Notes under the pieces: generated by a model
What the model was told of the DNA's origin: nothing
What the model saw: only the letters and a program-made list of their open reading frames with translations
The model's database searches: none
Translations under genes and position numbers: made by a program
DNA from: Candidatus Gastranaerophilales bacterium
GTDB lineage: Bacteria; Cyanobacteriota; Vampirovibrionia; Gastranaerophilales; Gastranaerophilaceae
Length of the DNA stretch: 41,516 nucleotides
Assembly: GCA_944326675.1 (NCBI GenBank)
Contig: CALVET010000051.1
Location: forward strand, 1-41,516
Direction: 5' to 3'
In this document: positions 35,035 through 40,930 of the stretch, in pieces
How the letters are laid out: each line of letters begins with the position of its first letter
How positions within the stretch are numbered: position 1 is the stretch's first letter

Positions 35035-36068
35035 AAATGAAAGCTGTGCGCTATTATGCACCAAACGACATAAGGTATGAAGAAGTAAAAATTCCTGAAC
35101 TAAAGGAAGGTGAGATTCTTGTCAAAGTTCAAGCAGCACTTACTTGCGGAACTGATGTTAAAACTTTTAGGAGGGGTCATCCTGTATTAATTAAAAAAGT
35201 GCCCTCAGGTTTTGGGCATGAGTTTTCAGGAATAATAGAAAAAATGGATGATGCTACTCAAGGTTTTAATATAGGCGATAGAGTAGTATGCGCAAATTCA
35301 GCGCCTTGCGGAGAATGTTTTTATTGCAAGCGAGGTGAATATGAATTATGTGAAAATCTTGATTTGTTAAATGGGGCTTATGCTCAATATATTGCTGTTC
35401 CAAGAAGAATTGTCGAAAAAAATACTCTAATTATTCCCAAAAATCTTTCCTTTGCGCAAGCAGCTTTTTGTGAACCGTTATCCAATGTTGTTCATGGCAT
35501 TGCAAAAACCCCCATTAACAAAGGGGATGTCGTAGGTGTAATGGGAATAGGACCGATTGGCTTAATGTTTGCAAAATTGGCAAAATTAAAAGGCGCAAAA
35601 GTAATTGCTATGGGCAGAAACCCTTTGAAGCTAAAAATGGCGCATGAATTTGCAGACGCCGACGTTGTTATTGATGTTAATAAATATCCTGACCCTAGCG
35701 AATTTATAATGAATTATACAAATGAACACAGAGGACTTGATGTTGCAATTGAGTGTGTGGGTTTACCTTCGATGTGGGAAAAAATGTTTTCTTTAGTTAG
35801 AAAAGGCGGTTACGTTCATTTCTTTGGCGGGTGTGCATCGGGTACGTCAGTTAATATTGATACAAAACGCTTGCACTATGACGAAGTGAAAATAATCAGT
35901 TCTTTTCATCATACACCTAAATATTTTAGAGAAGCGCTTGATTTGATTTCATCAGGCAAAATTGATGTAGAAAAATTAATAACTAAGCGCATGGATATGA
36001 AATATGCAAAAAAAGCAATAGAAATGCATAGAGATGGTGAAGCTATAAAGATTTTGCTTGAAAATTAG
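35031..36068 (+). CDS. zinc-dependent medium-chain dehydrogenase (second of the pair)
   Basis: This 345-residue MDR enzyme has catalytic zinc ligands Cys39 (TCGTD), His63-Glu64 (GFGHEFSG) and the Glu of FCEPLSNVVHG. The structural zinc set is Cys93, 96, 99, 107 (PCGECFYCKRGEYELC). NAD(P) fold GIGPIGLMFAKLA is near 172-184. Style is polyol (iditol/sorbitol) dehydrogenase. It is clearly related to, but well diverged from, its upstream neighbour, so the pair may be a heteromer or two successive oxidation steps. The stop overlaps the small convergent gene by 4 bases. Confidence 0.88.
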   Translation: MKMKAVRYYAPNDIRYEEVKIPELKEGEILVKVQAALTCGTDVKTFRRGHPVLIKKVPSGFGHEFSGIIEKMDDATQGFNIGDRVVCANSAPCGECFYCKRGEYELCENLDLLNGAYAQYIAVPRRIVEKNTLIIPKNLSFAQAAFCEPLSNVVHGIAKTPINKGDVVGVMGIGPIGLMFAKLAKLKGAKVIAMGRNPLKLKMAHEFADADVVIDVNKYPDPSEFIMNYTNEHRGLDVAIECVGLPSMWEKMFSLVRKGGYVHFFGGCASGTSVNIDTKRLHYDEVKIISSFHHTPKYFREALDLISSGKIDVEKLITKRMDMKYAKKAIEMHRDGEAIKILLEN

Positions 36069-36430
36069 ATGTATTTATCAAATACGCTTTTTTGCACCGG
36101 TTCTGACATGCTTGCTTTAATAACAGCTTGATTATAGGCATTGGTTATATCTTTACCATTAAGAGTTCTATAAAAAAGAGGTATGTTGGCAATACCTTCG
36201 TATCTTTTTTTTCCTTTGTTTTGTTTAACTTTTAGCGAAATGTTATCATCATCAGGACAAAGAAACACTTCCACAGTATCATCATTACCGTTGTTTTCAA
36301 GTTTTTTAAGTGCTCTTTTAATTATACCGATATCATTATCGTTAAAACCTTTTTCGGGATTTCTATATAAAGTATCAATAACTTTAACTTTTGACTTAAA
36401 ATTTACATTGGCTAAATTATTAATTTTCAT
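36065..36430 (-). CDS. small unknown protein with N-terminal NFK tag
   Basis: This 121-residue protein belongs to no family I recognise. ATG 36430 is chosen because AAGGAG sits 5 bases before it; the frame is open 6 codons further. The N-terminus INNLANVNFKSKVKV is followed by a helical segment (IIKRALKKLENNG), a beta-type stretch (TVEVFLCPDDDNISLKVKQ), and a C-terminal helix after PLFYRTLNGKDITNAYNQA. The layout resembles the 143-residue gene at 40499, which starts NSFKGIRK and has a similar strand-strand-LxKGT-helix end. The two could be distant relatives, but identity is too low to claim by eye. Confidence 0.65.
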   Translation of the reverse strand: MKINNLANVNFKSKVKVIDTLYRNPEKGFNDNDIGIIKRALKKLENNGNDDTVEVFLCPDDDNISLKVKQNKGKKRYEGIANIPLFYRTLNGKDITNAYNQAVIKASMSEPVQKSVFDKYI

Positions 36431-36530
36431 TTTTTCTCCTTGAAACAAAAAAATTATTGACTTGTGAGCTTGAACTGGTATTATTATTTTATCAGCATAA
36501 TATGAGTTGTGCTTGTTGACCGTTTAAATA

Positions 36531-36559
36531 TTTACACAGGTTAACAAATCAAATAATAC
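36531..36559 (+). promoter_or_regulatory. predicted promoter upstream of the tRNA-Phe region
   Basis: TTTACA (36531-36536), 17 bases, then TAATAC (36554-36559). Transcription would begin near 36566, inside the first partial copy of the tRNA 5' end, and run about 90 bases before the real tRNA. The same TAATAC block is duplicated directly before the tRNA (36647-36652) but lacks a good -35. Confidence 0.45.
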
Positions 36560-36574
36560 ATATGCCGCGTTAGC
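36552..36574. repeat. direct repeat copy 1: tRNA-Phe 5' end plus upstream 12 bases
   Basis: This 23-base stretch is identical to 36645-36667. It contains a TAATAC -10-like element and the first 11 bases of tRNA-Phe (GCCGCGTTAGC), after which it diverges. The spacing between copies is 93 bases. Confidence 0.9.
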
Positions 36575-36606
36575 CAAGGTGAGTTTACGAAACCAATATA
36601 TAAATC

Positions 36607-36621
36607 ACCAACTGAGCTAAC
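36607..36621 (-). repeat. inverted copy of the tRNA-Phe D-arm
   Basis: ACCAACTGAGCTAAC is the exact reverse complement of tRNA-Phe bases 36662-36676 (end of acceptor arm through D-loop). In a longer transcript it could pair with the tRNA, or with the first copy's GTTAGC (36569-36574), giving alternative folds. Confidence 0.9.
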
Positions 36622-36644
36622 AGGGAATTAAAGAATAAAAACAG

Positions 36645-36667
36645 AATAATACATATGCCGCGTTAGC
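36645..36667. repeat. direct repeat copy 2, overlapping the start of tRNA-Phe
   Basis: Second copy of the 23-base repeat found at 36552-36574. Its last 11 bases are the start of the functional tRNA gene. Confidence 0.9.
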
Positions 36668-36729
36668 TCAGTTGGTAGAGCAAGGGACTGAAAATCCCTG
36701 TGTCCTTGGTTCGATTCCGAGACGCGGCA
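36657..36729 (+). tRNA. tRNA-Phe (anticodon GAA)
   Basis: A complete 73-base cloverleaf. The acceptor stem is GCCGCGT (36657-36663) with ACGCGGC (36722-36728) and discriminator A. The D-arm is GCTC/GAGC, and the anticodon stem AGGGA/TCCCT holds loop CTGAAAA, reading GAA. The T-arm is CTTGG-TTCGATT-CCGAG. CCA is not encoded. It is the only RNA gene seen in the window. Fragments of it occur on both sides. Confidence 0.97.
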
Positions 36730-36771
36730 AATTTTTTGCATTAATTTTTTGGTTTGATTATAGGACAGGCG
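36719..36771. repeat. 53-bp direct repeat copy 1: tRNA-Phe 3' end plus downstream sequence
   Basis: This stretch is identical over 53 bases to 36842-36894. It begins with the last 11 bases of the tRNA (GAGACGCGGCA) and continues into a T-rich spacer ending GGACAGGCG. The copies are 123 bases apart. Confidence 0.95.
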
Positions 36772-37030
36772 CCTCGGAGCAACCGCTCCGCTTATGCCCT
36801 CTCAGAAAATGCTCAACGGTTCGCATTTTCTTCGGCAGAGTGAGACGCGGCAAATTTTTTGCATTAATTTTTTGGTTTGATTATAGGACAGGCGTTCCTG
36901 CGGAAATCAAAGATTTCCACGTCACATTGGTATGGTTTCGCTCTGTCCGCCTGACCTCAACGGTCAGGCGTCACGAGCTCACACACCATGGCTTTTTCAT
37001 TCTCGTCTAAGTCAAGTCTGACTAAGACTC
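36772..37030. other. G+C-rich, hairpin-rich non-coding stretch
   Basis: Base composition jumps (34 G+C in the 60 bases 36941-37000) against roughly 30% around it. Four perfect hairpins occur: 36775-36790 (CGGAGC/GCTCCG), 36804-36831 (AGAAAATGC/GCATTTTCT), 36902-36918 (GGAAATC/GATTTCC) and 36948-36970 (CGCCTGACC/GGTCAGGCG). An imperfect one lies around 36996-37025. An open frame crosses it from inside the tRNA but is not credible as a gene. It may be a structured tail of the tRNA transcript or a repeat-type element. Confidence 0.6.
36842..36894. repeat. 53-bp direct repeat copy 2, containing a tRNA-Phe 3' fragment
   Basis: Second copy of the repeat at 36719-36771. It carries the final 11 bases of tRNA-Phe without the rest of the gene. 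Confidence 0.95.
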
Positions 37031-37115
37031 GAATTTCAAAAGATGTGAATTTTATTGTTGATTTTGCGTTCTTATATTATCCGTAATTTTATGATAAACT
37101 TTATTTGAGGTGAAA

Positions 37116-38302: not shown

Positions 38303-40489
38303 ATGGAAAATTATAGTTTAAATCCTGAATTATATAATTTTTTAAATTTATCAAAAGAAAATAATTCTGACGATTTTTCAAAATCATCAGAATTTGAAGA
38401 TAAAACTTCGGTCTTTTCTGAAAATTCGATTTCAAATAATACGGATTCTTTAAATAATATTTTTAAAAATGTACAAGATGAACAAGGTATAATAGGAAAG
38501 TTTTGGAACGGTTTTAAAGATTTAACAGGTCTTGGTTTAGGTTCATCTGATGTATTAAATAAAATTGAAGAATATGAACAAGGTAAAATCACATATTCAG
38601 AAGCATTGGAAGCTATTGAAAGTTATAAAAACAAGCAAGATGGTGCAGTAAGTTTGATTTCTAACACCGCAACAGGTCTTGCAACTGCCGGCTTTGCCTT
38701 TGCAACAGGAGGCGCAGGCGCTCTTTTAATGGGAGCTGTTGTCGGAGGTGCAGCTAATGCAGGTTTAAAAACGCTGGATAGAGCAACAAATGCCGTTGAA
38801 AATGATGCGCTTGATATTAAAGAGATTGCAAAAGACGGATTAACAGGTGCTGTTGATGGATTAGTTTCTGCTGCTACTGCAGGATTTGTTAAAGCTCCCG
38901 TTATGGGACAAACAATTAAGCAAGCAGTTAAACAAGGTGTAATCCAAGGTGCAAAATCAGGAGTTGTGACAGGTGCTGCTACAGGTGCTATGGATTATAC
39001 AATAAACACAACAGTAGACGGAAAAGATTTTAAATTGAGCGATTTAGCAGAAACAACCGTTCAAAATGCTTTATCCGGTGCTATATTTGGAGGTTTGTTC
39101 GGCGGTATATCAGGCGGGTTGTCTCAAAAAAAATTAAATATTGAAAATGAAACCGAATTTAAAATTACTCACAATAAAAATCTTGGAGCTGAGGTTGATA
39201 ATAAACTTCAATCAGAAAGATATTTGAACAATTTTAACAAAAATAATAAAGCCGATATGATAACAGGGCAAGAATATAATGCAAAAATTGATGAATTAAG
39301 TGCTTTGTCTCAAAAATCAGAAGTTTTAGAAAGAAAATTTGATTCTCAATTAGATGAAGCCGCAAATCAAGTAAGCAGTGTTTTTGAAGGAAATAGCGAC
39401 ATTAGAAAAATAACCGCCAGATCTAAAGGTCAAAATTCTATTTTTTCAAAATTAGCAAAGAAAAATATAGAAGACGGCAGAAGTTTAACCACATTAACGG
39501 AATGTTATGATGCAATAGGCGATGCTGTCGGCTTAAGAATTCAAATGAAAAATTTAAACAATGATGAAGCAACAGAAATAGTTGAAAGTGTATTTAAGGA
39601 TTTTGGAATTGATGCAACTTTTGATGATTTTGTTAAGTATATTCAAAATGGTCAAGCTTCATCTGATGAAATGAAAAATGTATTTGCAACAGTACAAAAT
39701 GAAATTATTAATGCTCTAAAAACAAAACAAGCACAAAGCGCGGTTGAACAGTTGTGCGAAGGTATTAAAACGGGTAACATTAAAATTACCGAATTAAATA
39801 ATTATGGAGATGATATAACTTCATATTTTACAAATAAACAAATCCATGAAATTTTAGATGCATACAGCTATGCTGTTAAAAATAATATTGTTGTTCAAGA
39901 TAAACCGTTTAAAATAGTTTCAAATTCAAGTTTAATGGATTTAAGCGAAACCGAAGTTTTGCCCGGTAATTTAGTAAAATGGGTAGAAACAACACAAGAT
40001 GGTGTTAATATTGAATTTAGTCAAACGACAAAAGGTGCAAATAAAGTTTCAGGCTATACCTCAGCTCAAATGAATACTAAACATGTTTTAAATAACGGTG
40101 AAATTGCAAACGGAGAATTGCAATTAAGAGGTCTTGAAGTTAATGCATTCGCGGATGTTGAACACATTCCTTATGATATTAGAAGAGGCAAAATATTTTC
40201 AGACGATTCTAAATATTCTGAAATTTACGGTTTAATTAAAACAATGAGTGAGGAAAATTATTCAAAATATAATGAATATCTTGCTGCGACATATAAAAAC
40301 TTAAGAATGAAAGAATTGGGGCTTTTGGATGTTAATGCGTCATTGCCTGATATTTCTGAGTTTATAAAAGAAGGAATTTCATCTAAGGATCTTAGAAAGC
40401 TTGATATAAACGGATTGACAAATATAAGCAAAAGCCAATCTTCAAAGGGCAATAAAATTTTTAGTTTTGTTTTAAATATGATAAAATAG
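38303..40489 (+). CDS. putative polymorphic-toxin-like protein with C-terminal RelA/SpoT (alarmone synthetase) domain
   Basis: The protein has 728 residues. Residues 1-60 are polar and probably disordered. Residues 60-115 form a small helical module (GIIGKFWNGFKDLTGLGLGS). Residues 115-275 are glycine/alanine-rich and hydrophobic (LATAGFAFATGGAGALLMGA, GLFGGISGG), like membrane-active or pre-toxin regions. From about 365 the RelA/SpoT synthetase motifs appear in order: Arg373-x-Lys375...Ser379-Ile (ARSKGQNSI), Asp407 in DAVGLRI, GYTS (584-587), Glu605-x-Gln607-x-Arg609 (ELQLR) and Glu620-His621. About 170 residues separate the DAVGLRI and GYTS motifs, far more than in RelQ/RelP-type enzymes, and the usual His after YxS is Gln589. 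No hydrolase, TGS or ACT domain and no signal peptide is present. The activity could be (p)ppGpp, (p)ppApp or tRNA pyrophosphorylation. A ribosome site GAGAAGAG precedes the ATG. Confidence 0.72.
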   Translation: MENYSLNPELYNFLNLSKENNSDDFSKSSEFEDKTSVFSENSISNNTDSLNNIFKNVQDEQGIIGKFWNGFKDLTGLGLGSSDVLNKIEEYEQGKITYSEALEAIESYKNKQDGAVSLISNTATGLATAGFAFATGGAGALLMGAVVGGAANAGLKTLDRATNAVENDALDIKEIAKDGLTGAVDGLVSAATAGFVKAPVMGQTIKQAVKQGVIQGAKSGVVTGAATGAMDYTINTTVDGKDFKLSDLAETTVQNALSGAIFGGLFGGISGGLSQKKLNIENETEFKITHNKNLGAEVDNKLQSERYLNNFNKNNKADMITGQEYNAKIDELSALSQKSEVLERKFDSQLDEAANQVSSVFEGNSDIRKITARSKGQNSIFSKLAKKNIEDGRSLTTLTECYDAIGDAVGLRIQMKNLNNDEATEIVESVFKDFGIDATFDDFVKYIQNGQASSDEMKNVFATVQNEIINALKTKQAQSAVEQLCEGIKTGNIKITELNNYGDDITSYFTNKQIHEILDAYSYAVKNNIVVQDKPFKIVSNSSLMDLSETEVLPGNLVKWVETTQDGVNIEFSQTTKGANKVSGYTSAQMNTKHVLNNGEIANGELQLRGLEVNAFADVEHIPYDIRRGKIFSDDSKYSEIYGLIKTMSEENYSKYNEYLAATYKNLRMKELGLLDVNASLPDISEFIKEGISSKDLRKLDINGLTNISKSQSSKGNKIFSFVLNMIK

Positions 40490-40498
40490 GAGAAACAA

Positions 40499-40930
40499 AT
40501 GAAAGTTTTACAAAATTATTATGGTTATAATTCTTTTAAAGGTATAAGAAAGGAAACAGGAGCTTCCAACGTGCAAGAAAACAAAAGCGATATGAATTAT
40601 TTTGTGAATAAAACTTTTGAAGTATTGGCTCAAAGAGTGGAAAAAGAAGTGCCTGAAAATGGAAAATACAGACCCATAGCAGTTTCATTTAAAATACCTG
40701 AAACAAATAACATGGCGAAATTTATAGTTGAATATGATGAAGTAAATCCAAAAGACTTTAGAAGGTTATTTATTGGGGTCCAACATGTAAACAGCGATAA
40801 GATGGTGTCATATCATTTATTGAAAGGTACCAAAAAAGAAATTCTTGAATATATAAATAATTCCGATAATATACCAAAAGCAATTGAATTTGTTGGAGAA
40901 TTATCAAAAAGTCTGGATAGTGATTATTAA
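40499..40930 (+). CDS. small protein downstream of the RelA/SpoT-domain gene; candidate immunity protein
   Basis: This 143-residue protein matches no family I know. It starts 9 bases after the stop of the RelA/SpoT-domain gene, with an AGGAGA ribosome site in the gap, so it is translated from the same message. The N-terminus contains NSFKGIRK. A helix follows (VNKTFEVLAQRVEKEV), then strands (PIAVSFKIP, KFIVEYDEV, RRLFIGVQHV, MVSYHLLKG) and a final helix. There is no signal peptide. Position and size fit an immunity or antitoxin partner. It has no HD-type hydrolase motif, so it would not act as an alarmone hydrolase. The role is inferred only from position. Confidence 0.6.
   Translation: MKVLQNYYGYNSFKGIRKETGASNVQENKSDMNYFVNKTFEVLAQRVEKEVPENGKYRPIAVSFKIPETNNMAKFIVEYDEVNPKDFRRLFIGVQHVNSDKMVSYHLLKGTKKEILEYINNSDNIPKAIEFVGELSKSLDSDY

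Follow-up and report, generated by a model that had tools for sequence, protein, structure and literature searches.

Anatomy of the tRNA-Phe locus

The window, by which we mean the whole 41,516-nt stretch of a Candidatus Gastranaerophilales contig that was analysed, holds an intact tRNA-Phe(GAA) gene whose own ends and arms are copied on both of its sides. The features of the locus, with positions in the window, are as follows.

36457-36484, forward strand: promoter-like site TTGACT-16-TATTAT with a TG ahead of the -10 (10/12 consensus)
36552-36574, forward strand: D-unit direct part, a 12-nt leader copy (source 36645-36656) followed by tRNA bases 1-11
36575-36606, forward strand: D-unit spacer of the CAAGGTGAGTTTACGAAACC.. 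type, resembling spacers at tRNA-Phe of other species
36607-36621, reverse strand: D-unit inverted part, ACCAACTGAGCTAAC, exact reverse complement of 36662-36676 (tRNA 6-20, D-arm)
36622-36656, forward strand: leader from the D-unit to the tRNA, ending with the second copy of AATAATACATAT
36657-36729, forward strand: intact tRNA-Phe(GAA) gene (Rfam RF00005, 69.8 bits)
36730-36771, forward strand: trailer, first copy
36769-36778, reverse strand: T-unit inverted part, GCGCCTCGGA, 9/10 against the reverse complement of 36716-36725 (T-arm/acceptor)
36779-36841, forward strand: T-unit core, GCAACC..TTATGCCCTCTC-hairpin-TCGGCAGAGT, also present at many tRNA ends of the order
36804-36812/36823-36831: inner stem of the T-unit core hairpin
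36842-36894, forward strand: T-unit direct part, tRNA bases 63-73 plus 42 nt of trailer
36896-37058, no strand assigned: second, dispersed GC-rich palindromic repeat adjoining the T-unit

The initial annotation had described a copy of the leader and tRNA 5' end 93 nt upstream, an inverted D-arm and a 53-base downstream copy opening with the last 11 tRNA bases, and all three proved exact. The stretch 36552-36574 is identical to 36645-36667 over 23 nt at an offset of 93 nt upstream (a looser version of this match runs to 30 nt at 90%), the 15-nt inverted D-arm match was reached by 0/2000 spacer shuffles, and 36842-36894 repeats 36719-36771 at 100% identity over 53 nt at an offset of 123 nt downstream. 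Two pieces of the downstream unit had been overlooked, namely the reversed T-arm/acceptor piece at 36769-36778, for which a counterpart GCGTCTCGGA is found in relatives, and the hairpin core at 36779-36841, which is common to other tRNA loci.

The locus contains a single D-unit and a single T-unit, both from a family of palindromic tandem units of ~90-125 bp. Read 5' to 3', the D-unit runs from leader copy through tRNA 1-11, spacer and reversed D-arm to the leader and the tRNA, and the T-unit from trailer through reversed T-arm, core and tRNA 63-73 to the trailer copy. In both types the outward tRNA end and its transcribed flank are copied directly, the neighbouring, loop-side arm segment is reversed, a hairpin spacer is included and the functional tRNA is left intact, and both types exist singly or in tandem. 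No gene, integrase included, lies inside the 93-bp and 123-bp units of the window.

The promoter-like site is kept at the orthologous loci of three other genomes (G021, G018 and G008), and its position upstream of the D-unit would place that unit within the transcribed leader. A simple scan found no intrinsic terminator in the tRNA-Phe trailer, and the only Rfam matches at the locus were the tRNA itself and a sub-threshold match to Giardia U4. A 112-aa ORF with a TTG start that spans the tRNA, viewed against the released small RNA or protamine-like peptide by which rtT repeats are also recognised, is not credible.

Several further features of the window and its genome were seen in passing. A second, identical tRNA-Phe gene (G000:C4:2007-2079, L087) carries a D-unit too, whose spacer differs, and is without a T-unit. 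In this genome, a tRNA gene is found no farther than 600 nt from 6/11 clusters of the GC-rich repeat (P about 1e-7). The reverse-strand stretch 36065-36448 encodes a 127-aa protein with no Pfam match and the N-terminus NVNFKSK, resembling in style further short proteins of the window such as that at 40499-40930, and 38303-40489 encodes a 728-aa protein with a glycine-rich N-terminal half and a RelA/SpoT-like stretch just below the Pfam cut-off.

Spread over tRNA genes and genomes

Each sampled tRNA, as predicted by ARAGORN, was compared with the sequence flanking it, in which other tRNAs were masked. The resulting counts are lower bounds, since arrays break contigs and, for most genomes, the sample consisted of the 30 tRNAs with the best scores. 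In the genome of the window, a draft of 1.7 Mb in 87 contigs that we take to be metagenome-assembled, a direct copy of the tRNA's own end is present in the adjacent flank of 11/36 tRNA genes, upstream at 6/36 and downstream at 7/36. G028, a genome of another family, has such copies at 16/30 tRNAs (11/30 upstream, 11/30 downstream), with arrays of up to four units and perfect reversed arms of 15-17 nt, and G008 has them at 5/31. When a tRNA was instead set against the flank of another tRNA, the rate was 0-0.2%, and 0-0.1% for the counts kept apart by end; these controls and the shuffles rule out a chance origin of the repeats. Up to about half of the tRNA genes in some Gastranaerophilales are flanked by units. 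The view of the initial annotation, which had treated a single locus, is correct in that the tRNA-Phe locus is real, but the pattern is genome-wide and tRNA-Phe is one case of it.

The distribution is patchy. Direct end copies were found at 0/31 sampled tRNAs in G045, 1/33 in G029, 0/31 in G035 and 0/30 in G056, the last being a genome from elsewhere in the phylum that we take to be a photosynthetic cyanobacterium. One of the counts of 0/31 comes from another genus of the same family, and the other, together with the 1/33, from other families; the lone match in G029 stems from adjacent tRNA-Pro genes. At tRNA-Phe, units are present at 4/19 loci in other genera of the family and at 0/9 loci elsewhere in the phylum. 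The initial annotation had proposed a comparison with related genomes and an independent assembly as a check for an assembly artefact, and that explanation is ruled out, the same architecture being found in independent assemblies of at least a dozen related species.

Orthologous tRNA-Phe loci occur in empty and filled states, and their spacers turn over between relatives. For instance, G021 (L007) and G008 (L006) have the same tRNA-Phe leader without a D-unit, and in G018 the position that the D-unit takes in the window is occupied by two D-units, whose spacer is of another kind. Tandem repetition amounts to one extra unit in the window and to at least two in G003, G020 and G028, and the distal copies in such arrays are decayed. 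Upstream copies are of 5' ends and downstream copies of 3' ends, with rare exceptions such as tRNA-Ile. The copies track the sequence of their own tRNA, as with GAGACGAGCCA next to the variant tRNA-Phe of G007; the tRNA copies are self-specific, yet the spacers are common to different tRNAs and species.

We considered whether the units are decayed tandem copies of whole tRNA genes, formed by duplication and random loss. A degenerate, near-whole tRNA-Ile copy downstream of tRNA-Ile (L041) and a core flanked by direct T-arm pieces in L250 are consistent with this reading. It is contradicted by the inverted arms and the shared spacers and cores, which it does not explain, and it gives no reason why the upstream copies should be confined to 5' ends and the downstream ones to 3' ends. 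We regard it as very improbable.

Two side observations concern other inserts. Downstream of tRNA-Arg(acg), at L026 in the genome of the window and at L093, successive units carry differing, intact-looking terminator hairpins. In two families of the order, another insert family, ..GGCTCAT-A/T-TTCGCC..AAGCA or GTTTGTCGTG, stands directly 5' of copies of tRNA 3' ends (L034, L037, L043 and L050 in the genome of the window; L183, L185 and L202 in G028).

Shared cores and known repeat systems

A search of GTDB contigs with the core pattern TTGCCCTCTC-N(20-46)-TCGGCAGAGT returned 51 stretches in Gastranaerophilales records and five in unrelated records, the latter being no more than expected by chance; E. 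coli was absent among the matches. Altogether 64 core copies were compared. A tRNA stands no more than 750 nt away from 41 of them, a further 18 are close to where the available stretch ends, and 5 fall in neither class. The junction is an exact 9-mer of a tRNA end in 51/64 copies (31 sense 3' ends and 20 antisense 5' ends) as against 0/5 of the chance matches, and the 3'-side junction recurs three bases ahead of the acceptor strand. One core type is found at Phe, Arg, Leu, Met, His, Lys and Pro tRNAs, and several tRNA-Leu genes carry the core at their 5' end, turned the other way round. The acceptor stem being palindromic, a 5' end read in antisense looks like a 3' end, and this may explain the two orientations.

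Cores common to different tRNAs, species and orientations, junctions that recur and insertion polymorphism at orthologous loci together raise the possibility of miniature mobile elements, in which a dedicated enzyme (a recombinase, transposase or reverse transcriptase) would target tRNA arms and the duplicated tRNA end would be a target-site duplication. The units are without any gene, however, and a survey covering the Y1 transposase family found none in the genome of the window, in G028 or in nearly all of the genus. The inverted target piece and the duplicated flanks of varying length are also unlike simple target duplications, and we judge a mobile origin unlikely.

Known families of short repeats and insertions share some of these traits. 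Integrative elements at tRNA 3' ends, casposons included, likewise produce a second copy of the 3' end without damage to the tRNA gene. In contrast, the Gastranaerophilales units are ~100 bp long and without genes, include an inverted target piece and also occur in 5'-end forms, and a tRNA-targeting integrative element is rejected for want of an integrase or other genes between the duplicated ends. The SDR elements of Nostoc (cyanobacteria), very small mobile repeats of which some lie in structural RNA genes, are likewise tiny, gene-free, palindromic and nested; the Gastranaerophilales units differ in being built from the host tRNA's own ends and placed at tRNA ends. REP families (PMC3733652), as REP/BIME with RAYT (Y1), are alike in being short intergenic DNA palindromes of many copies. 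The units differ from them in their tRNA-end junctions, and the Y1 (HUH) transposase that defines REP/RAYT is absent from the genome of the window.

The closest likeness is to rtT (rttR, tpr) at E. coli tyrT/tyrV, which we inspected at NC_000913.3:1287066-1287236 and which, to our knowledge, has so far been treated as a single oddity. The order there is trailer, GGGGAAGGAT (a reversed T-arm piece), AAGGTTCGA (a direct T-arm piece), a hairpin spacer, AATCCTTCCCCCACCACCA and trailer, three times over. A resemblance to rtT suggested in the initial annotation is borne out, and it extends to the reversed T-arm piece, which the E. coli units also hold; there it is a 10-nt inverse match that was reached by 11/2000 shuffles and is moderately significant. 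Both systems have tandem units downstream of a tRNA, each rtT unit ending in the tRNA's last 19 bases, and the reversed piece and hairpin-rich spacer of rtT follow the T-unit layout. The downstream copy of the tRNA 3' terminus, the tandem repetition and the reversed T-arm piece (9/10) are all found here. By inspection, the rtT spacer is unrelated in sequence to the Gastranaerophilales cores. Whereas rtT occupies one locus at one tRNA family, downstream only, the Gastranaerophilales units occur at many tRNAs and at both ends, with mirror-image units upstream. The comparison is one of architecture, and we do not claim homology.

In the Gastranaerophilales, rtT-like units have multiplied in a lineage-specific way and include an upstream form that is the mirror image, the expansion being at tRNA gene ends in some lineages of the order. 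In another phylum, then, the rtT architecture together with a mirrored 5' form is found at as many as half of the tRNA genes, which makes it a comparable and recurrent phenomenon. The open literature, outside which most rtT papers lie, yielded no paper on tRNA-end units in Gastranaerophilales or on rtT, which is weak evidence of novelty.

Hairpin perfection, precursor folding and the origin of the units

The inner core hairpin occurs in 48 distinct forms with 39 different stem strands, and the stems change wholesale while staying perfect at the DNA level. Summed over the 48 hairpins there are 474 Watson-Crick pairs, 0 G-U, 2 A-C and 32 other. G-U pairs would be tolerated under selection on RNA, and a DNA copying process would leave none; with zero G-U pairs, an RNA-selected core structure is not supported. 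The perfect, G-U-free hairpins and the patchy distribution favour an origin at the DNA level.

The reversed D-arm is the best-conserved part of the D-unit. It is invariant in six related tRNA-Phe D-units in which spacer and leader have diverged, and 12/15 of its bases are kept at the second tRNA-Phe copy of the window's genome. This invariance fits either selection for pairing or a repair of the inverted repeat with the tRNA as the source.

A regulatory reading is that base-pairing of the nascent tRNA with the two reversed arms, that of the D-arm upstream in the leader and that of the T-arm downstream in the trailer, would slow or gate its folding and processing, and that the directly copied ends would compete as alternative partners. 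The location of D-units between the promoter-like site and the tRNA and the conservation of the inverted arm are consistent with it, as are the predicted folds. Over 21 D-unit loci the mean predicted cloverleaf probability falls from 0.83 to 0.34 when the unit is included, compared with a fall from 0.77 to 0.68 for 65 upstream flanks without units (P 1e-8). Over 17 T-unit loci it falls from 0.73 to 0.33, compared with 0.80 to 0.65 for 71 downstream flanks without units (P 0.004). The initial annotation had suggested alternative folds of the precursor or short tRNA-like RNAs, either of which may or may not have a function, and folding the precursor with and without the inverted D-arm. In silico that arm is indeed predicted to pair with the tRNA D-arm, with a drop in cloverleaf probability, and shuffling it in the window brings the predicted probability back to 0.73.

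We would like to note that these are equilibrium predictions for unmodified RNA that ignore kinetics, modification and tertiary structure, which tells against the regulatory reading. So do the absence of units at every tRNA sampled in another genus of the family, which speaks against a general requirement, the G-U-free stems, which indicate the DNA level, and the turnover of spacer types among relatives. Misfolding of the precursor by the reversed arms is predicted, and these may have a regulatory role, but we consider this account of the units rather unlikely. Its broader form, a genome-wide self-antisense system gating the folding and maturation of individual tRNAs and forming an undescribed class of regulation with rtT as its sole known distant counterpart, would be quite unlikely. 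The units do raise the question of how pre-tRNAs carrying 15-17 nt antisense to their own arm mature.

DNA template switching combined with tandem duplication beside an intact tRNA is the best-supported origin, and we put its chances at about even. Template switching has been proposed or reported to create and maintain perfect stems (PMC8794818); for these units it is inferred. Units would arise, and stay perfect, by quasipalindrome-type copying at the hairpin-prone D- and T-arms, and would expand by tandem duplication and unequal exchange, and the conserved sequences of the arms may let spacer cores move from one tRNA gene to another. Their persistence could reflect a safe harbour, in that gain or loss of a unit beside an intact tRNA would leave the gene unharmed. 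They are probably transcribed within the pre-tRNA and then removed by processing, and any effect on tRNA maturation would be secondary. Against template switching, the presence of one core at many tRNAs, in either orientation, and the recurrent junction look more like site-specific insertion, and the invariant reversed D-arm also fits selection on RNA pairing.

The units form a natural data set on how hairpins and inverted copies form at structured genes. They may also be a reason why contigs of gut metagenome assemblies sometimes break at tRNA genes. Contigs end in or beside tRNA arrays at L004, L010, L017, L055, L062 and L139, which suggests that the arrays break short-read assemblies.
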